The notes under the pieces: model-generated
Databases searched by the model: none
Told to the model about the DNA's origin: nothing
Seen by the model: only the letters and a program-made list of their open reading frames with translations
In this document: positions 27,718-37,757 of the stretch, piece by piece
Layout of the letters: every line of letters begins with the position of its first letter
How positions within the stretch are numbered: position 1 is the first letter of the stretch
Program-made: the position numbers and the translations under genes
NCBI GenBank assembly: GCA_016790075.1
Contig: JAEUPP010000039.1
Location: 124,001-188,000, forward strand
Direction: 5' to 3'
Source of the DNA: Rhodanobacteraceae bacterium
GTDB lineage: Bacteria > Pseudomonadota > Gammaproteobacteria > Xanthomonadales > Rhodanobacteraceae
DNA length: 64,000 bases

Positions 27718-28923
27718 TCAGCACTCAGGGCCCGCGCGCAGACGCGGATGCGCAGACAGAGCCTGCGCCAGCGAGGCGCAGGCGAGCAGCAGCAGGCAAA
27801 GCACGAGGAACACGGCGCTGCTACCCATCCATCCTGCCGCCGTGGCTGCCGCAAATGGCCCGGCCGCCCGGGCTGCGCCCTGCGCCCGTGCAATAGATCC
27901 GCCGGCCCGCGCCGCCATGCCGACGCCGAACAAGATAGGTACAACTACCGGGCGGACCAGTGTGTGCAGACCAGCACCCGCGCCGAACAGCGCCACAGCC
28001 AATACCGCGGCAGGCAGCGATCCCACGGCATATAACAGGGCCAGACCCAATGCCTGCAGCACCAGCGGAGCGACGATCAAGCCACGCAACGGCAGCGCAC
28101 GACCGTTTCCGCGCAGCAGCCAGATGCGGCCGGGCAACTGCATGACACCGAGTGCTGCAAGCACGTAGGCCGCGTATTCAATGGGATGACCGCGAGCGAC
28201 GAGATGCGGAATCGCCAGCGTCGTGAGGCCCAGCGTGGCAAAGGTTGCAACCACGAAAGGAGTGCCAGTGAGCCAGAGCAGGCGGCGGTCGATGACGCTG
28301 CTCCCGCCAGCCGCACCAACACCGCCACTCGCGCTGCGCATTCCATCCGACGTGTGCAACCAGGGCAGTGCCGATTTGTGAATCAACCAGGCGGTCAGCA
28401 GCCACACGACGACCAGCACACGCAGGGTGATGCGCCAGCCCCAATACCCCACACCCATGCCAACCAGCGGCAGGAACAACGTGCTCGCAAGCCCGCCCAT
28501 CACCGTAACACCTGCCAGCGCACGAACCCGCGCCGCAGTGTCGTCAAAAGCCCGCGTCACCAGCGCAAACGCGGTCTCATACAGCACCAGTGCCATGCAC
28601 GCGCCGAGCCCGGCCCACACCAGATAGAGCGCGGCAATGCCCGCCACGTAGGACCAAGCGAGCAATAGACCCGCCGCGGCGAGTGCACCAACCCGCATGA
28701 GCAGCACGCCACGGCCGCCGTCGAGCCAACGCCCCACCGGTGCCGCGCATAAAGCACTCACTGCCAGTCCCACGGAAAACGCACCCGCTATCGTAGCGTC
28801 CGAACCACCCAGCTCACTGCGCATCGGCACCATGAGCACCGAAAACGCATAATATAAAATGCCCCAATATACGCACTGCCCTGCGCCGAGAATCCAGACC
28901 GCTGGCCAGTGCTGTGCGTTCAT
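27718..28923 (-). CDS. MFS transporter in the arsenic-type island
   Basis: A 401-residue major-facilitator protein with about twelve hydrophobic segments. A conserved loop reads GRWLDGGRGVLL between segments 2 and 3. I placed the start at the ATG at 28923, which overlaps the flavoprotein stop as ATGA. It is probably co-expressed with the flavoprotein and the hydroxylase under the MarR-type regulator. MFS exporters such as ArsJ, ArsK and ArsP-like neighbours are known from arsenic islands, but I cannot assign this one to a subfamily. Confidence 0.75.
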   Translation of the reverse strand: MNAQHWPAVWILGAGQCVYWGILYYAFSVLMVPMRSELGGSDATIAGAFSVGLAVSALCAAPVGRWLDGGRGVLLMRVGALAAAGLLLAWSYVAGIAALYLVWAGLGACMALVLYETAFALVTRAFDDTAARVRALAGVTVMGGLASTLFLPLVGMGVGYWGWRITLRVLVVVWLLTAWLIHKSALPWLHTSDGMRSASGGVGAAGGSSVIDRRLLWLTGTPFVVATFATLGLTTLAIPHLVARGHPIEYAAYVLAALGVMQLPGRIWLLRGNGRALPLRGLIVAPLVLQALGLALLYAVGSLPAAVLAVALFGAGAGLHTLVRPVVVPILFGVGMAARAGGSIARAQGAARAAGPFAAATAAGWMGSSAVFLVLCLLLLACASLAQALSAHPRLRAGPEC

Positions 28924-30344
28924 GCGCGCGCACCACAGCAAGCTGAAGCTCGCGGCAGCGCTGTGGCGGCAATCACCGGGTTGCAACCGCAACCGGTTTC
29001 ACCACGAGCCTTGGCCGCCGCATCCGCCACGCAGCATGCACTGGCGTCCGACACAGCCGGACCACCGCAACAACCGCCCGATACCACTGCATCATCGTCT
29101 TCAGCAAATTGCGTAGCGCAGACGCCCGTTTCCGGCAGCACAAGCTCGACTCGTCGCGCCGCTTCCCAGTCACCAGCAATCGCTGCCGCAACGGAGCGCA
29201 CCTGCTCGTAGCCGGTACGCAGCAGAAAGGTCGGCGCGCGGCCATAGCTCTTCATACCGACCACATACAGATTCGCCTCCGGATGGGCGAGCTCGGCGGC
29301 ACCGTGTGGGCGCACCGTGCCACAACTGTGCTGATTCGGATCAATCAGCGGCGCCAACGCCAGTGGCGCCTGTGTGGTTGCATCCAGCCCCAACCTTACC
29401 TCGTCAAGGATGGACAGATCTGGCCGGAAACCGGTTGCACCGATCAGTTCATCGACCGGCGGCAGTGCCCGTTCGCCGCTCCAGACCACCCAGCCCGCCG
29501 GGCTTTGCTCGATGCGATCGATATGCGTGTCGGTGTGAAGCCTTATTTTTCCCTGTTCGAGCCATTGCGCGATGCGTTTCCCCAGGCGGCCCCGCTCCTT
29601 GAGCTGGTCGTTTTCGCCGCCGCCTAGCACGCGCTTCGCGGTCGGCTGCCGTATGGCCCAGTGCAGCTCTCCGCCGGGTTCGTACTGCGCCAGGCGTACC
29701 AGATCAAGAAGTGCGTTGAACGCAGAATGGCCACTGCCCACGACCAGCACCCGTTTGCCGGCGTAGCGGCTACGTGCAGCACCCAGCACGTCGGGTATGC
29801 CATAAACCACGTTTGCGGCCACCGCCTGTTCACCCAGCGCCGGCAAGCCCGCAGCACCCAGTGGATTCGGACGGCCTGTGGTGCCGGATGCGTCAATCAC
29901 CGCCCGCGCCCCAACTTCGTATTCCACACCCGCCTGCCGATAGCGAACGATAAACGGCGCGGCCTCACGGCCGGCATCTTTCATGCGGTCATGCCGGTGT
30001 TTGGCCACAGCGATGACACGTGCGTTCAGACGAATCTGTGCCGCCAATTCCGGTATTGCGGCCAGCGGTTCCAGATAGTGCTCCAGAACTTCGCCCCCCG
30101 TCGGATACCGGGCCGGATCAGGCGCAGTCCAGCCCTGCGCCGCAAGCAGTTCCGCGGCGCGCGCATCAACGTTGTACTCCCAGGGCGAAAACATGCGCAC
30201 ATGTGCCCACTGCCGGATGCCAGCACCTACCTGGGCAGACGCTTCGAGCACCAGAGGAGTCAAACCGTGCGTGCGCAACTGCACGGCAGCCGCCAGCCCC
30301 ACCGGGCCGGCGCCGATAACGACGACAGGTAGCACTTCAGACAT
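28920..30344 (-). CDS. Flavin-dependent monooxygenase-like oxidoreductase with cysteine-rich tail (ArsO-like)
   Basis: A 474-residue flavoprotein. The FAD motif is VIGAGPVGLAAAVQL at the N-terminus and the NAD(P)H motif is VVGSGHSAFNALLDL near residue 200, with the ATGF segment near 315; the order fits class B flavin monooxygenases and thioredoxin-reductase-like enzymes. Such genes occur in arsenic islands as ArsO. The last 70 residues contain nine cysteines in pairs (GGCCGG, ACC, GCGC, ACCG), a probable metalloid- or metal-binding tail. GGAG precedes the ATG. A MarR-type operator lies 155-173 bp upstream. Confidence 0.75.
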   Translation of the reverse strand: MSEVLPVVVIGAGPVGLAAAVQLRTHGLTPLVLEASAQVGAGIRQWAHVRMFSPWEYNVDARAAELLAAQGWTAPDPARYPTGGEVLEHYLEPLAAIPELAAQIRLNARVIAVAKHRHDRMKDAGREAAPFIVRYRQAGVEYEVGARAVIDASGTTGRPNPLGAAGLPALGEQAVAANVVYGIPDVLGAARSRYAGKRVLVVGSGHSAFNALLDLVRLAQYEPGGELHWAIRQPTAKRVLGGGENDQLKERGRLGKRIAQWLEQGKIRLHTDTHIDRIEQSPAGWVVWSGERALPPVDELIGATGFRPDLSILDEVRLGLDATTQAPLALAPLIDPNQHSCGTVRPHGAAELAHPEANLYVVGMKSYGRAPTFLLRTGYEQVRSVAAAIAGDWEAARRVELVLPETGVCATQFAEDDDAVVSGGCCGGPAVSDASACCVADAAAKARGETGCGCNPVIAATALPRASACCGARA

Positions 30345-31203: not shown

Positions 31204-32604
31204 TCAGGAGCTCGCCGCAAAGCGCGTGAGCAGATCCACCAGCCGATCCAGATCAGATGCATTGCTGGCCAGACCCAGCGAGGCACGGATCGCGCCGACC
31301 GCCCGACCGCTGCAGTCGGCGAGCCGCTGCGGCGTAAACCCATCCGCCAGCCGCCCCAGGCACTGCGCAAGGCGCGCCGGCTCCTGACCGAACGCGGCCT
31401 CGGCCGCGCCGGGATTGCAGAAGCAACCGCCGCGGACGGAAATACCAGCATCACGCGCAGCGACCTCGACGGTGGCATAAGGCACAACCGCTCCTTGCTG
31501 ATCGAGCAGATTGAACGTGACAACACCACCGCGCACGGTGCGATCATGTGGCCCATAGACGAGAACCAGCGGTGCGCCATTCGCGTGCCGCAACGACTGC
31601 AGCGAGTCGAGCAACCGTACACTCAGACTGGCTACGTGTGCTGCAAGGCGCTCCATGCCGACCTCGCGCAGCAGGCCGAAACCCGCAGCCAATGCCGCGA
31701 TGCCGAGAAAATTCGGCGTGCCGTCCTCGAACCCCTCGGCACCGTCCTGCAGCCGGTGCAGATCCGCTTGCACCGAGGCATAACGCACGCTGCCGCCGGC
31801 AAACCAGGGACGCCGCAGCAACGGAACCACATCACGCCGCATTACCAGCGCGCCGAGCCCAGTCGGGTAGCCAAACAGCTTATAGAACGACAGTGCAACG
31901 AAATCTGCCGGACAGACGCGCAGGTCCACTGCGTGCGATGGGGCGAACGCAGCAATATCGAGCATGACCTGCAGGCCGCGCTCGCGCGCATACCGCACCA
32001 GCGACAGCGGATGCAGCGCGCCGGAGAAATTTGACTGAGCGGGGAATGCGAGCAATCCGGCACCGGCCGTGGCGACAGCATCGATTACGCTCTCAGGATC
32101 ATCGAGTTCAAGCTCAGCGTTGAGCGGCAGCACGCGAATCGCCGCACCGGCGCGGCGCGCGTACTCGCGCACTCCGTTGATGGAGTTGTGATTGTCCGCC
32201 GACAGCAGCAGCGGACGGTCGGCCCCAAACGGATAACTTTCGGCGACGAGCTTGAGCGCAGCACTGCTGTTTGCGGTGAAGCACACGAGGTGACTGGTCT
32301 CGTCAACACCGAGAAAGCGCAGCACTTCGGCGCGCGCCTGTTCGATGATCGCTGTGCTTGCCCGCGCCGTGCTGGATTCCGAATGCGGGTTGCCGAACAA
32401 GCCGGCTGCAAGCAATTGCGCCTGGGCATTAACCTGCGAAACGCCGTAAAGGGCGCTGCCGGTATAGTCGAGGTAGCAGTGCCCCAATTCATCCAGCCGC
32501 GCAAACTCGCGCCGGCGCAACGCCGCAAAATCGAAATTCCCTCCGGCGGAAATGGCGGGCACCGTCGACGGCAACGCGCCGGAGCGGGATGGGATACTCA
32601 ACAT
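31204..32604 (-). CDS. MOCOS-like class V aminotransferase (cysteine desulfurase type)
   Basis: A 466-residue PLP enzyme. The PLP lysine is Lys242 in SFYKLFGYPTG, and the sulfur-accepting region is RGGCFCNPGA with Cys394 and Cys396, both much closer to the N-terminal domain of eukaryotic molybdenum-cofactor sulfurase (MOCOS) than to IscS or SufS. The C-terminal MOSC domain of MOCOS is absent. The likely reaction is removal of sulfur from cysteine onto the enzyme. Its start overlaps the rhodanese-like gene by 7 bp, making it the last gene of a five-gene sulfur operon. The acceptor of the sulfur is unknown. Confidence 0.75.
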   Translation of the reverse strand: MLSIPSRSGALPSTVPAISAGGNFDFAALRRREFARLDELGHCYLDYTGSALYGVSQVNAQAQLLAAGLFGNPHSESSTARASTAIIEQARAEVLRFLGVDETSHLVCFTANSSAALKLVAESYPFGADRPLLLSADNHNSINGVREYARRAGAAIRVLPLNAELELDDPESVIDAVATAGAGLLAFPAQSNFSGALHPLSLVRYARERGLQVMLDIAAFAPSHAVDLRVCPADFVALSFYKLFGYPTGLGALVMRRDVVPLLRRPWFAGGSVRYASVQADLHRLQDGAEGFEDGTPNFLGIAALAAGFGLLREVGMERLAAHVASLSVRLLDSLQSLRHANGAPLVLVYGPHDRTVRGGVVTFNLLDQQGAVVPYATVEVAARDAGISVRGGCFCNPGAAEAAFGQEPARLAQCLGRLADGFTPQRLADCSGRAVGAIRASLGLASNASDLDRLVDLLTRFAASS

Positions 32605-33119
32605 CCGCGGCGACTCCGTTGATGCAGGGTGCGTACATCGGGAACGCCACGCTGCGGCGCCCCGCCGAAATAGCGACTCAGATCGGCACGTGGTGCAAAA
32701 GCGCGCTGTACGTGCATCGGCGCATCATCCCTGAGCACCGGAAACAGCACCTCGCTGTTCCAGGCCTCGATGCCTCCACGCAAACGCCGTAGCGGCAGGC
32801 CCGGATAGCGCTGGCGCAGTGCGGCAAACGCCGCGTCACCGATCTGTGCGTCCGCGTAGACCACGACCAGATCCGCTGGCGGCAGACCGCCGTCAAGCAG
32901 CGCCAGGGACTGCGAACCCGCGATGCGCTCCTCGGCGGCAGCGACTGCGCGTGTATCGAGTACCAGCAATCCTGCACGCTGGTCGCGTATCCAGATCGCC
33001 AGGTCAATGGCCGCCACTTCGTCGTCGCGCAGTGGCGGCTGTGGATTTTCCACAGCGGCCGCCAGCACCCCCGCGGCAAGGGCCAGCGCCGCAAGCATCA
33101 GGTGAACAGGGCGATTCAT
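32598..33119 (-). CDS. Exported rhodanese-fold protein without catalytic cysteine
   Basis: A 173-residue protein with a signal peptide or N-terminal membrane helix (MNRPVHLMLAALALAAGVLAAA) and one rhodanese fold (LVLDTR, then GGIEAWNSEVLFPVL). At the loop where active rhodaneses have cysteine it reads VVVYADAQIGD, with Ala in that place. It is therefore predicted to bind or present rather than transfer sulfur. I chose the ATG at 33119, which overlaps the upstream transporter stop by 4 bp. It is the fourth gene of the sulfur operon. Confidence 0.7.
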   Translation of the reverse strand: MNRPVHLMLAALALAAGVLAAAVENPQPPLRDDEVAAIDLAIWIRDQRAGLLVLDTRAVAAAEERIAGSQSLALLDGGLPPADLVVVYADAQIGDAAFAALRQRYPGLPLRRLRGGIEAWNSEVLFPVLRDDAPMHVQRAFAPRADLSRYFGGAPQRGVPDVRTLHQRSRRGC

Positions 33120-33694
33120 CGAGCCCCCCGCTCTACGCGCTGGAGCAGGCCGAAGGCGGCCAGCGCGATCAGCACGATCACGCATACGACGACACCGTAG
33201 GACAGACCCAGCAGCTCCGGCAGGGTCCAGGCGCCCCGCGCCGAATTTATATAAAAATCCGGCCAGTAGCGCACCAGCCAACCGCTGCCCAGCATGCCCG
33301 TGAACAGACCGAACAGCACAAACACGCCGTCGATGCGGCCGGTTGCCGCCGCAACACAGGCAGTGCCCGGACAAAGCCCCGCGACGAGCAACCCGGCTCC
33401 GAACACCACGCCGCCCACCAGTTGCGGGCCAAGATAGGTCGGCGGCAGGTAGAGCGCCGACAGTTCCAGCAGACCCAGACGACTCAGCCAGAATACGCCC
33501 AGCATGGCCACGAGCAATGCGCTGAACATGACCTTGAACACACGCAGGTCACGGCCATAGAACTGGCCGACCAGCAGCCCTGCGCGTCCGAGTCCGGCGC
33601 GTTCAAGCGCCGCGCCGAATCCCATGCCGAGCACCAGCGCAATGGCGAGGGAGGCGCCCAGCGACGAACCCTCCGGCAGCAGCGGCGCGCTCAT
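33116..33694 (-). CDS. YeeE/YedE half-transporter B
   Basis: A 192-residue membrane protein of the YeeE/YedE (DUF395) family, whose best known member TsuA imports thiosulfate. About four to five hydrophobic segments are present, and the family motif GLCPGTACVAAATG gives Cys108 and Cys113. It is half the length of YeeE and probably pairs with the adjacent half A. The ATG at 33694 overlaps the stop of half A as ATGA; a GTG two codons earlier is possible. Confidence 0.82.
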   Translation of the reverse strand: MSAPLLPEGSSLGASLAIALVLGMGFGAALERAGLGRAGLLVGQFYGRDLRVFKVMFSALLVAMLGVFWLSRLGLLELSALYLPPTYLGPQLVGGVVFGAGLLVAGLCPGTACVAAATGRIDGVFVLFGLFTGMLGSGWLVRYWPDFYINSARGAWTLPELLGLSYGVVVCVIVLIALAAFGLLQRVERGAR

Positions 33695-34212
33695 GACCAC
33701 ACCTTGCGCAGCAGCGGCGCCAGTGCATAGGCGCTGGCAAAGGCCAGCACGAGAAACAGCCAGCCGCCCACACCCAGCAACGCCCCACCGGTCAGGGCCT
33801 GCCCGCTGGTGCAGCCACGTGCGAACACCGCACCGGCAGCCATCAGCACACCACCGCCGAACGCCAGCGCCAGGCGCTGCCTGCGTGTGATCGCGGCGGC
33901 GTGTTCGACGGTCACCAGCAGCCGGCCTGCCAACGCCGCCGACAGCCAGGCGCCAAGCATCACACCCAGCAATTCAACCGTAAGCCATTCCAGCCAGGGC
34001 CCCGGTGCAGAAAGGTAATGCGCGAACAAGGGACTTGCGGCCGCCTGCTCGGGCGCGACCAGCGCGACGGCACCGGCCGCTGTACTCGCGAAGGCACCCG
34101 AAGCACCGAGGCCACGGCCGACCAGCACGAACGCGGCGAGCAGAACCAAACCCAGCGCGGCACCAGCGAGATAGGGATCGGCATAGGCGCGCGCCGGCTG
34201 TGGCGTGTTCAT
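33691..34212 (-). CDS. YeeE/YedE half-transporter A
   Basis: A 173-residue membrane protein with about four hydrophobic segments and the second family motif ARGCTSGQALTGGALLG with Cys134. In TsuA conserved cysteines pass thiosulfate along the channel; here the essential cysteines are distributed over two polypeptides, halves A and B. It overlaps the sulfurtransferase stop and the half B start by 4 bp each. Sulfur compound import into the cytoplasm is the probable function. Confidence 0.82.
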   Translation of the reverse strand: MNTPQPARAYADPYLAGAALGLVLLAAFVLVGRGLGASGAFASTAAGAVALVAPEQAAASPLFAHYLSAPGPWLEWLTVELLGVMLGAWLSAALAGRLLVTVEHAAAITRRQRLALAFGGGVLMAAGAVFARGCTSGQALTGGALLGVGGWLFLVLAFASAYALAPLLRKVWS

Positions 34213-35144
34213 GGCTGCCCCCGCTTGGTCGATGTCTCGACAGGGTTGTCCTTGCGCCGCGACCAGTCCTGGAACGCACCGTCATAGAGCCGTACGGGAT
34301 GGCCCAGCAGGCGCGCGGCAAACAGTGTCGCCGTTGCCTGCTGACCGATGTGGCAATAGCCAACGACCGTGTCGCCGGGCTGGATACCGGCTGCCTCGAA
34401 CAAGGCCTTCAATTCTGCCGTGGAGCGCACGCGCAGCTGGTCATCGGTGATGGTGGTAAACGGAACGCTGCGCGCGCCGCGGATATGGCCTTTGTGATGA
34501 ACCTGCCCGTGTGCGCCGCCGACTTCCACACCGTCGTAGTAGACCGCCGCGCGTCCATCAACCACGGCCACACCCGGCGTGTCGAGATGCGTGCGCACAT
34601 AGTCCGCATCAACGATCAGCGGCTGGACCTTGAGCGCTGCAAGTTTGCCCGGCTGCACCGGCGGCGTGTCCTTGCTGGTAGCACCGCCCTGCGCTGTCCA
34701 CGCGCGCATGCCGCCGTCGAGCAGACGCGTGCGCTCGCCGAGGCCCGCATACTGCAAGGTGAACACCACACGTGTACTCGGGCTGACCCAGTCTTTTCCG
34801 TAATAAACCACAATGCGAGAATTGTCTGATATGCCGAGTTTTTCCAGGCGCGCACGCAAGTCTTCGTCCGGAAGCATTTCCAGCATCAGGCCATCGCGCG
34901 TATGTTCAGACCAGGACAACTCGTCCTGCGAAACCCAGCGCGCGCCGGGAATATGGGCCTTGCGGTATTCCGTCTCGTCGCCGACGTGCAGGAGCACGAG
35001 GTCGGGATCGTGCAGGTGGGCGTCCAGCCAATTCGCGTCGACAAGCAGGTTGCTGCGCGGATCGGTGCTACTGGCCGCCGCCTGCGCGATGCCCCCAGCA
35101 AACAGGACGGCCAGACAAAGGTGAAGCCAAAAACTCGATTTCAT
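34209..35144 (-). CDS. Exported two-domain sulfurtransferase
   Basis: A 311-residue thiosulfate/3-mercaptopyruvate sulfurtransferase with a signal peptide (1-23). The N-terminal rhodanese domain (about 30-160) has Tyr at the active position (VVYYGKDWV), and the C-terminal domain (about 170-300) keeps the catalytic Cys264 in GYCHIGQQAT. Substrate recognition motif HIPGA and the GHIRGARSVPF segment are in place. It probably transfers sulfane sulfur in the periplasm to the YeeE-type channel encoded next. It is the first gene of the sulfur operon, preceded by the 12-bp direct repeats. Confidence 0.85.
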   Translation of the reverse strand: MKSSFWLHLCLAVLFAGGIAQAAASSTDPRSNLLVDANWLDAHLHDPDLVLLHVGDETEYRKAHIPGARWVSQDELSWSEHTRDGLMLEMLPDEDLRARLEKLGISDNSRIVVYYGKDWVSPSTRVVFTLQYAGLGERTRLLDGGMRAWTAQGGATSKDTPPVQPGKLAALKVQPLIVDADYVRTHLDTPGVAVVDGRAAVYYDGVEVGGAHGQVHHKGHIRGARSVPFTTITDDQLRVRSTAELKALFEAAGIQPGDTVVGYCHIGQQATATLFAARLLGHPVRLYDGAFQDWSRRKDNPVETSTKRGQP

Positions 35145-35259: not shown

Positions 35260-36042
35260 TCAGCGGCGCTGACCCATCTGGGCGAAACGCGCCTCGAACT
35301 CGTGCCGCCGGCTGCGGCTCAGGCGCACCGTTGCCCCGTCCGCAAGCTTGAGCTCGCAGTCGCCGCGAAACAGTGGATGGATCTCACGCACACGCGCCAG
35401 ATTGACGATGGCCGAACGATGCACCCGGACGAACTGTTGCGGATCAAGCTGACGCTCGACCTCGTCCATGGTGTCACGCAGCAGATGGCGGGCGCCGCCA
35501 CAATGCAGACAGATGTAATAGTCAGCGGCTTCGATCCAGTCGATCTGGCTTGCATCAACGACCACGGTACGGTCACGCGCCGGGACCAGAAAACGGGGTA
35601 GCGGCGACCGCCGTGCACTCAGCAGTTCAGCAATACGGGTATCAAGCTCGCCGCGGCGCCGGCTGCGCGCCTGTGCCTTGGCCCGCGCCAGCGCCGCCGC
35701 GAAACGCGCGTCGGTGAATGGCTTGAGCAGATAGTCGAGCGCATGAACCTCGAACGCGCGTAACGCGTAGCGGTCGTACGCCGTGGCGAAAACAACGGCC
35801 GGCACCGCATCCGCACCGATCAAATCAAGCAGCGCGAAGCCATCCAGTTCAGGCATCTGTATATCGAGAAACAGAATGTCGGGCCGCAACCGTGCGATCA
35901 GCGCCACGGCATCAACACCGCTGCCCTGCCCCACGACCTCGACCTCCGCATCCTGCTCCAGCAGGGCCTCGACACTGGCACGCGCCAGCGGTTCGTCATC
36001 GATAACAAGTACCTTGAGCGGAGCCTCCGCCGGAAGATTCAT
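35260..36042 (-). CDS. LytTR family response regulator
   Basis: A 260-residue regulator of the AlgR/LytR type: receiver domain (8-125) with acidic pocket IDDEP, phosphoacceptor Asp60 in LFLDIQMPELDG and Lys in YLLKPF, then a LytTR DNA-binding domain (about 155-255) with VRVHRSAIVNLARV. The ATG at 36042 overlaps the kinase stop as ATGA, so it is coupled to its kinase. The sulfur operon starts 115 bp beyond its stop and has a candidate LytTR site in between. Confidence 0.9.
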   Translation of the reverse strand: MNLPAEAPLKVLVIDDEPLARASVEALLEQDAEVEVVGQGSGVDAVALIARLRPDILFLDIQMPELDGFALLDLIGADAVPAVVFATAYDRYALRAFEVHALDYLLKPFTDARFAAALARAKAQARSRRRGELDTRIAELLSARRSPLPRFLVPARDRTVVVDASQIDWIEAADYYICLHCGGARHLLRDTMDEVERQLDPQQFVRVHRSAIVNLARVREIHPLFRGDCELKLADGATVRLSRSRRHEFEARFAQMGQRR

Positions 36043-37115
36043 GCAGCGGCCTGCCACGGCAGTTCGATGGTCGCGAGCACCCCACCATCGACCGCCGTCA
36101 GGCTGAAATGCGCCGCATCGCCGTACAGGCTACGCAACCGCTCGCGCGTATTGCGCAGGCCTATGCCTTCGACCGGATCAGCAGACAGCACGCCGCTGTT
36201 GTAAATGCACAGCTGCAGGCGCTCGCCGCTGCGCTGCGCCTGCAGCCTGACGGTTCCCGGCGCTGCCAGGTTCGCAATGCCGTGACGCACCGCGTTCTCC
36301 ACCAGCGGCTGCAGGATAAGGCCGGGCACCAGCCCGCGCGCTGCTTCAGCATCGATCGCGATATGGAACGACAGTCGGTCCGGAAAACGCGCGAGCTCAA
36401 TCTCGAGGTAGCGCTCCAGCATCACCGTTTCCTGCGCCAGTGCCACGCGCTGTCGTTCCGCCTGCTCCAGCGAATAGCGCAGCAGATCGGCCAGGCCGGC
36501 GATCATGGTCACCGCCTGTGCGTTATTCCGGCTGCGCACCAGCCCGGCCACGGCGTTGAGTGTGTTGAACAGAAAATGCGGCCGCAACTGCAGCTCCAGC
36601 ATATGCAACCGCGCATCCGCCAGCGAACGCTCCAGCTGCGCCGCCCGCAAGGCCCGTTCCAGATAGCGCTGGTAGTACTCGAACGCAAGCACACAGCCCA
36701 GTACCAGGCTGTACAGCATCCACTCCATCGGCATGCGCGAAAGCAGCACAGTGCTCAGATCGATTTCGGACAAGCTCGCCGTCATACGATCGTAGGGCTG
36801 CATCCACAGCATCAGCGCGACCTCATACAGCGCATGCACGATCGCGATGCCGGCAGCGGCCAGTGCATGCAGCGTGATAGCCGAGGCACGCAGCGGCAAC
36901 AGCGGAAATCGCCGCGCCATGCCGAGTATGCAATAGGTTGGCACCACCCAAGCCAGCCACACCGCAATGAAATAAGACAGCAGCAACGGCACGGAATGGC
37001 CGTGCTCAAGCATGCTGATCCAGACCTGGATACCGGTCAGTGTGCCGAATACCAGCCAGAAGGCTGTGGCGGCGAGCAGGAAATGGCGCGTCTTCACGCG
37101 CGGAGTGTGCCGCAA
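36039..37115 (-). CDS. LytS/YesM-type sensor histidine kinase
   Basis: A 358-residue membrane kinase with about four N-terminal hydrophobic segments (near 12-34, 43-64, 78-104 and 133-147), a helical linker, the His_kinase H-box LRPHFLFNTLNAV with His180, and a HATPase domain containing QPLVENAVRHGI and GIGLRNTRERL. There is no large extracellular sensor loop, so the signal is probably sensed in the membrane. It is coupled to the LytTR regulator. Like AlgZ it is a short membrane-bound type. Confidence 0.9.
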   Translation of the reverse strand: MRHTPRVKTRHFLLAATAFWLVFGTLTGIQVWISMLEHGHSVPLLLSYFIAVWLAWVVPTYCILGMARRFPLLPLRASAITLHALAAAGIAIVHALYEVALMLWMQPYDRMTASLSEIDLSTVLLSRMPMEWMLYSLVLGCVLAFEYYQRYLERALRAAQLERSLADARLHMLELQLRPHFLFNTLNAVAGLVRSRNNAQAVTMIAGLADLLRYSLEQAERQRVALAQETVMLERYLEIELARFPDRLSFHIAIDAEAARGLVPGLILQPLVENAVRHGIANLAAPGTVRLQAQRSGERLQLCIYNSGVLSADPVEGIGLRNTRERLRSLYGDAAHFSLTAVDGGVLATIELPWQAAA

Positions 37116-37304: not shown

Positions 37305-37757
37305 TCAGGCGCCGAGCACCCGCCGCGTCCACGCCACGATATCGGCGCTGCTCATCACACCACTCTGGCGTGCAAGCTCCTTACCGCTACGGATCAGCAG
37401 CAAGGTCGGAATGCTGCGGATCGCATAACGCTCCGACAACGCGGGTTCTGCGTCGGAGTCCACTTTGGCCAACCTGACCTGTGGCTCCAGTTTTCTGGCT
37501 GCAGCCTCGAACTGCGGCGCCATGGTGCGGCACGGCCCACACCAAGCAGCCCAGAAGTCGACCAGCAGCGGCAGTTCCGCGCGCATCGCATGCGCATCAA
37601 AACTGGCCGCCGTCAGCACGAGGGGATGTGCGGTAAACAGTGCCGCATGACAACGGCCACAGACCGGCCCCTGGGCAAGACGTACGGTCGGCACGCGATT
37701 GAGCCGGTGGCAGTGCGCACAGGCAACGAGCGTGTTGTCATTCAAGTTGTCATTCAT
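37305..37757 (-). CDS. trxC: Thioredoxin 2 with zinc-binding N-terminus
   Basis: A 150-residue TrxC. The N-terminal part has two CxxC pairs (ACAHCHRLN and VCGRCH) that bind zinc, followed by a thioredoxin fold with active site WCGPC and the cis-proline loop IRSIPTLLL. TrxC responds to oxidative stress in several bacteria. It lies 76 bp after prpF on the same strand. No OxyR site was recognised. Confidence 0.93.
   Translation of the reverse strand: MNDNLNDNTLVACAHCHRLNRVPTVRLAQGPVCGRCHAALFTAHPLVLTAASFDAHAMRAELPLLVDFWAAWCGPCRTMAPQFEAAARKLEPQVRLAKVDSDAEPALSERYAIRSIPTLLLIRSGKELARQSGVMSSADIVAWTRRVLGA

Follow-up and report, generated by a model that had tools for sequence, protein, structure and literature searches.

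Thiosulfate can be turned into sulfane sulfur by a periplasmic rhodanese, and this sulfur then enters the cell by a route described as unknown (PMC10215317; this and the other papers cited here are drawn on for the passages available of each). A five-gene operon of a Rhodanobacteraceae bacterium (assembly GCA_016790075.1, contig JAEUPP010000039.1, positions 124,001 to 188,000, the stretch of 64,000 nucleotides that was analyzed as a whole and is termed the window) combines a putative exported double-rhodanese sulfurtransferase (ST), a YeeE/YedE pore split into two proteins (YeeE_a and YeeE_b), a rhodanese-fold protein with a flexible tail ending in cysteine (the Rhd-tail protein), and a MOCOS-like pyridoxal 5′-phosphate (PLP) enzyme, and it raises the question of what task would bring such parts together. 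The answer favored here, with moderate confidence, is that the operon would encode a relay for sulfane sulfur across the cytoplasmic membrane, most likely in the inward direction. The anatomy of this predicted relay is well supported, and it is read from the sequence in the form of gene order, protein families, cysteines kept and lost, a conserved tail, gene fusions, and independent pairings of the parts.

The genes (Table 1) are all on the minus strand and run from 35144 to 31204, with junction overlaps of 4, 4, 4, and 7 bp, in agreement with the overlaps of 4 or 7 bp claimed in the original prediction made from this DNA; the second overlap is 10 bp if YeeE_b begins at GTG 33700. These overlaps, together with the conserved gene order described below, are the grounds for treating the genes as one unit, as had been proposed.

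The most telling component is the Rhd-tail protein, the product of gene 4. It was originally regarded as simply an inactive rhodanese, a view that was not borne out because its C-terminal cysteine is conserved, although its active-site loop contains no cysteine and thus lacks the Cys of the CxxGxR motif of an active rhodanese. The sole cysteine of the protein is its last residue. By itself the protein falls under the PF00581 cut-off (15.7 versus 22.2 bits), while 19 of 21 members of the Rhd-tail family match PF00581 at E ≤ 0.01, and its structural model (mean predicted local distance difference test score, pLDDT, 87.6, with ∼90 in the domain and ∼56–61 in the tail) matches solved rhodanese domains in a Foldseek search. 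The ten best Foldseek matches (E ≤ 0.001) carry the bare title ‘BH2092 protein’, and not until rank 11 (E 1.7e-3) does a title mention rhodanese. From the PF00581 matches of the family and the Foldseek result, gene 4 is predicted to have the rhodanese fold.

A cysteine lies within the last three residues in 43 of the 46 rhodanese-profile loci examined, including all 42 of those that are beside split YeeE genes, and in all 33 of the family proteins in the main set, where it is the only cysteine in 24 of the 26 stand-alone proteins. Ten further loci (L151, L171, L185–L187, L168, L169, L170, L183, and L184) also have the tail cysteine. As a baseline, among 716 other called genes of these loci (gene calls in relatives were made with a simple custom caller), 11 end in cysteine, 21 have a cysteine within the last three residues, and two have their sole cysteine there. 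The linker that carries it is variable, extending from FGG.P to the end of the protein over 17–44 residues in 25 loci. A search across Pseudomonadota gave a rhodanese match in 244 of 398 genomes and, among the matches listed, the tail is covered by that of the window alone. The idea that gene 4 is a dead rhodanese was dropped in view of its conserved C-terminal cysteine. Where no MOCOS-like gene of the window's family was present within the stretch fetched, which is 3 to 14 kb, examples of the tails are KKRSC, KKKKKEGC, EAGGC, GGGCG, KRKEGC, LKGC, and KPAGC. The genomes of three such clusters (L146–L148) contain a solo MOCOS-like gene elsewhere, and 2.6 kb downstream of another, L168, there is a class V protein of another kind (28% identical).

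The pore is encoded by genes 2 and 3, both of which match PF04143 (Sulf_transp, cut-off 27 bits), one over the C half of the profile and the other over the N half, in line with the channel in two halves that had been claimed. YeeE_a has 173 amino acids and four hydrophobic segments, and YeeE_b has 192 amino acids and five. The pore cysteines are conserved, as GCTS in 34 of 34 YeeE_a sequences and as CPGT in 35 of 35 YeeE_b sequences, and with scores above the profile cut-off and the pore cysteines kept, both proteins are members of the YeeE/YedE family, with sulfur transport as their predicted function. A second cysteine in YeeE_b, giving CPGT(A/S)C, is present in 26 of the 27 sequences from operons with a MOCOS-like gene (the exception is L090) and in two of eight from clusters that have none. 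By charge bias, in a simple hydropathy count, the C-terminus of YeeE_b is predicted to be inside, hence the helix that follows would carry the rhodanese domain outside. YeeE_b and the Rhd-tail protein are fused into a single protein in several loci (L051, L058, L159, L090, and L146–L148), and YeeE_b is fused to rhodanese domains of a sulfurtransferase in L171, with L185–L187 alike by sequence match. A model of the L058 fusion, which comprises only half a pore, has a mean pLDDT of 82.7 and a predicted template modeling score of 0.56, with low confidence between the domains. A search of PDB sequences with YeeE_b gave no match. The window's own genome contains a third, more distant Sulf_transp match (G000:C36:6838-7203). 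In addition, an in-frame TGA occupies the CPGT pore-cysteine position of YeeE_b in two Desulfobacterota loci (L183 7224-7226, in the reverse strand frame, and L184 4885-4887), which suggests selenocysteine; the YeeE/YedE selenoprotein named in a review has another motif, GUxSG.

The outermost and innermost components were recognized in the original prediction as an exported sulfur donor and a MOCOS-type PLP protein without a MOSC domain, and both descriptions agree with the domain assignments. ST has two PF00581 domains and a hydrophobic N-terminus, and its active-site cysteine is within GYCHIGQQAT of the second rhodanese domain, in a CH(I/V)G motif found in 23 of 23 ST sequences (22 loci once the duplicate pair L010 and L015 is reduced to one). 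Two rhodanese domains with the active cysteine in the second are the layout of a double-domain thiosulfate/mercaptopyruvate sulfurtransferase. PF00266 is the only Pfam match of gene 5, which means that the protein has no MOSC domain. Its H139, D216, K242 (the PLP lysine), and C396 (a persulfide-type cysteine) align with a SufS, C394 being extra, and C396 is invariant in 27 sequences. The complete set of SufS-type catalytic residues (the PLP His, Asp, and Lys plus Cys) is therefore present, and SufS/CsdB are the nearest solved structures, but the score of gene 5 is under the NCBIfam SufS cut-off (124.6 versus 475.1 bits). Relative to MOCOS and ABA3, the PLP lysine and the persulfide cysteine are found and the C-terminal MOSC domain is not. 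C396 is presumably the counterpart of ABA3 Cys430, and the GCFCN loop of gene 5 we take to resemble the MOCOS/ABA3 loop. Cysteine desulfurase activity is predicted from the catalytic residues.

Table 1. Positions in the window of the operon genes, the cysteine tail, and the adjoining two-component genes.
Feature	Position	Strand	Basis
Gene 1, ST, predicted exported double-rhodanese sulfurtransferase	34209..35144	-	PF00581 in two stretches, E 1.3e-30; hydrophobic segment 5-23
Gene 2, YeeE_a, C-half-like YeeE/YedE, pore Cys in ARGCTSG	33691..34212	-	PF04143, profile 177-308 of 310, 63.3 bits
Gene 3, YeeE_b, N-half-like YeeE/YedE, Cys in GLCPGTAC	33116..33694 (GTG 33700 also possible)	-	PF04143, profile 5-148 of 310, 61.1 bits
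Gene 4, Rhd-tail protein: N-terminal hydrophobic helix, predicted rhodanese fold, flexible tail ending RRGC	32598..33119	-	Sequence, model, Foldseek
C-terminal tail of gene 4, residues 156-173; Cys codon 32603-32601, overlaps gene 5 start	32601..32654	-	pLDDT ∼56–61
Gene 5, MOCOS-like class V PLP enzyme, cysteine-desulfurase fold, no MOSC	31204..32604	-	PF00266, E 8.4e-46
LytTR response regulator, upstream	35260..36057	-	PF04397 + PF00072
Histidine kinase of LytS type, paired with the regulator	36039..37115	-	PF06580

The original prediction called for a search for the same gene order in other genomes, and this order proved not to be unique to the strain. Homologs of gene 5 were sought in a scan of named genomes that gave at least 578 encoding stretches, of which the best 80 of 578 were kept; with L010 left out as a duplicate of L015 and the window added, 85 MOCOS-like loci were compared. 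The five-gene set in the same order and strand is present in 22 of the 85, a proportion that is not a population frequency since similarity to gene 5 was the basis on which the loci were selected. The remaining 63 comprise three that are cut by a contig edge, one (L090) in which YeeE_a accompanies a fused YeeE_b-Rhd protein, and 59 with none of the other operon genes nearby. The full loci are from Pseudomonadota (14, of which seven are near-identical Dyella/Rhodanobacter copies), Gemmatimonadota (six), and Acidobacteriota (two), and later searches added the full sets L151, L156, and L159, the last with two tandem sulfurtransferases. Rhodanobacter sp. MP7CTX1 (G516) has two full copies of the operon, L045 and L151. 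Among 99 relatives of the organism, its own genome included in each count, six have a close MOCOS-like gene, and in five of these it belongs to the five-gene set; G094, the remaining one, has a methyltransferase fusion at a different place. A cluster specific to one strain is ruled out by the presence of the order in other genomes. A MOCOS-like homolog from the same taxonomic order (L014, 8168-10651) is fused to a methyltransferase domain.

The history of these pairings was examined in a maximum-likelihood tree of 88 MOCOS-like sequences, where 27 of the 28 operon sequences are in one group of 35 (100/99) together with eight others, and 26 operon sequences are inside a group of 28 (100/92). 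The exception, L090, branches with a solo gene (100/84) at a distance from the remaining operon copies, and this position suggests that the two kinds of part were paired there independently. Five changes of operon label are forced by well supported branches. The copies from Tahibacter, the genus to which the window's genome belongs, group with those of Acidobacteriota (98/97), a sign of possible transfer from one phylum to another.

The likeliest order of transfer, based on published work on YedE1E2, TsuA, PmpA/B, SoxT1, rhodaneses, and ABA3, is from ST to the tail cysteine, YeeE_a, YeeE_b, and finally the MOCOS-like enzyme. ST would load its own active-site cysteine with sulfur taken from thiosulfate or a comparable donor and hand it on to the terminal cysteine of the Rhd-tail protein. 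The N-terminal helix of the latter would tether it to the membrane, and its tail would serve as a swinging arm. This arm would offer the sulfur to the split pore, at the cysteine of YeeE_a and then that of YeeE_b, and the cytosolic MOCOS-like desulfurase would be the inner partner, either receiving the sulfur or forwarding it. In this scheme we infer export and topology, the persulfide on the tail, the inward direction and, above all, the use made of the sulfur by the PLP enzyme. Inward movement is preferred because the split YedE1E2 imports zero-valent sulfur and, as described, does not export it, with one cysteine required in each half (PMC10812762); import of sulfane sulfur, as originally suggested, is by this precedent the likeliest use of the operon. 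The last step, from the pore to the MOCOS-like enzyme, is the weakest, and the desulfurase could equally be the donor. It is conceivable, if rather doubtful, that the operon represents a new class of relay in which a rhodanese-fold protein has shifted its reactive cysteine from the active site to a C-terminal arm docking with a split YeeE pore, and in which, in this lineage, a PLP desulfurase would work with imported sulfur delivered straight from the pore and not only with cysteine.

How much of this is new was also at issue, as the combination of genes had been said to match no familiar pathway. That does not hold for the split channel itself, which is already published as PmpA/PmpB and YedE1E2: PmpB and PmpA are the N and C halves of YeeE, and SoxT1A and SoxT1B are import and signal pores (PMC11582611). 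YeeE/YedE sulfur uptake is already known and it is the carrier and the PLP partner that are new, and no description of the cysteine tail or of the operon was found in searches of the PMC library, judged mostly from listings. Like YedE1E2 and PmpA/PmpB as reported, the window pair consists of two half-length proteins, N-half-like and C-half-like, with one conserved pore cysteine each. However, its halves of 173 and 192 amino acids do not fit the size of ∼130 reported for these, and the operon adds the Rhd-tail protein, the putative exported ST, and the MOCOS-like enzyme. By analogy, the pair may work like PmpAB, and it is not filed as PmpAB. In the TsuA-TsuB (YeeE-YeeD) system of thiosulfate uptake, the cysteines of TsuA are in line and end at a cytosolic YeeD cysteine (PMC11073785), an arrangement of in-line pore cysteines and a cytosolic cysteine partner that the window operon shares. 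It differs in having no TusA-like partner, in having no cysteine ahead of CPGT in YeeE_b and thus nothing at the place of TsuA C22, and in a score far under the NCBIfam TsuA equivalog cut-off (35.4 versus 400 bits).

The outer and inner partners likewise have partial precedents. The SoxT1A and SoxT1B modules are YeeE-like importers near periplasmic thiol proteins and cytosolic sulfurtransferases, but in the available account they are full-length pores tied to Sox/sHdr oxidation and their outer protein is DsbA-like or SoxS rather than a cysteine-tailed rhodanese (PMC11582611). SoxY is a periplasmic sulfur carrier with a swinging arm and a cysteine at the very C-terminus, in GGCGG (PMC6067878), while the window carrier has a predicted rhodanese fold and ends in RRGC (two Chloroflexota fusions end in GGGCG), hence the likeness is an analogy only. 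ABA3 is a class V desulfurase that hands sulfur to a rhodanese, STR18 (PMC8931425), though these proteins are described as cytosolic and ABA3/MOCOS has a MOSC domain, whereas the rhodanese proteins of the window are predicted to be outside and gene 5 has no MOSC.

Several observations weigh against the inward relay. Desulfurases normally make persulfide from cysteine, a role that fits a donor as well as an acceptor. The 59 MOCOS-like loci (of 85) that are without relay genes showed no recurrent partner, either on clustering or on inspection of 15 neighbor genes by eye. Three Chloroflexota rhodanese matches (L172–L174), none beside YeeE, have no tail, another rhodanese match (L149, in G504) was not resolved, and L169 has the tail with no YeeE gene found within the 13 kb fetched. 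Finally, part of the RRR run in the tail may serve translation of gene 5, given the Shine-Dalgarno-like motif found in the DNA that encodes many of the tails (see below).

The opposite direction of flow is unlikely. Here the MOCOS-like enzyme would make persulfide from cysteine and the pore would send the sulfur out to the tail cysteine and ST for periplasmic use or detoxification, and a cytosolic desulfurase with intact catalytic residues would be a natural source of it; yet the reported effect of split YedE1E2 was to speed import, not export (PMC10812762), and the outer partners in relatives resemble thiosulfate/polysulfide enzymes acting on outside sulfur, with DsrC as an inner partner. By Pfam, the tail module of L168 is next to a molybdopterin oxidoreductase, an FeS protein, NrfD, and DsrC, and that of L147 is next to multiheme cytochromes and a flavoprotein; the like genes in L158 and L170 and the DsrC/DsrE-like genes in L147 were identified by eye alone. 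The neighbors in L168 and L147 of these tail clusters without a MOCOS-like gene of the window's family are thus of kinds that handle sulfur, a point in favor of the inward relay.

A sensory function, in which the relay would report outside sulfur to the adjoining two-component system as SoxT1B does to SoxR, is similarly improbable. SoxT1B is described in such a role (PMC11582611), and in 16 of the 22 full loci the operon is adjoined by two-component genes, a pair or a single member, of two unrelated types, LytTR in 11 and HisKA/OmpR in five (types Pfam-checked in the window, L013, L040, L023, and L068). Against this, six of the 22 have no such pair in the stretch covered, and the pair may merely switch the operon on; in the window, the LytTR regulator is probably the regulator of the operon and stands outside the relay.

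Loading of a cofactor, which the original prediction had entertained, is very unlikely in the form of sulfuration of the molybdenum cofactor (Moco) of Mo-hydroxylases by the MOCOS-like enzyme, with the operon as its sulfur supply. In its favor, gene 5 combines the class V fold with the MOCOS/ABA3-like GCFCN loop, and 23 of the 24 operon genomes have the PF02738 Mo-hydroxylase domain; since 58 of 59 same-family genomes also have it, the Moco role is not supported. Moreover, a close MOCOS-like gene is present in only six of the 99 relatives, one operon genome (G581) has no PF02738 match, and gene 5 is without MOSC.

It is scarcely credible that the cysteine tail is only a side effect of where gene 5 has its ribosome site and its overlapping start. 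Of 25 operon loci, 22 have this start overlapping the cysteine codon, and 20 have a Shine-Dalgarno-like motif ahead of it in the tail-coding DNA, but the cysteine is not the last codon in L013, L019, and L035, and 14 clusters without a MOCOS-like gene of the window's family keep the terminal cysteine, encoded without an overlapping start, which argues that it is a feature of the protein.

Elsewhere in the window, a TrxC-type thioredoxin (37305-37757) is encoded upstream of the two-component pair, and an ArsK-like transporter of the major facilitator superfamily (below the model cut-off) is beside a flavin adenine dinucleotide (FAD) oxidoreductase with a very cysteine-rich C-terminus (27718-30344), a pair that is possibly arsenic-related. 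An Rfam scan of the window gave no match.

The inward relay proposed for this operon bears on two matters that the available literature on SoxT (PMC11582611) and PspE (PMC10215317) leaves open, namely the way in which YeeE/YedE pores are offered sulfane sulfur on the outside and the identity of its recipient on the inside. A conserved, linked gene set with a sole terminal carrier cysteine makes this question testable by the change of a single residue. The operon may also provide a possible context for the widespread family of MOCOS-like PLP enzymes, for which at least 578 encoding stretches were found.

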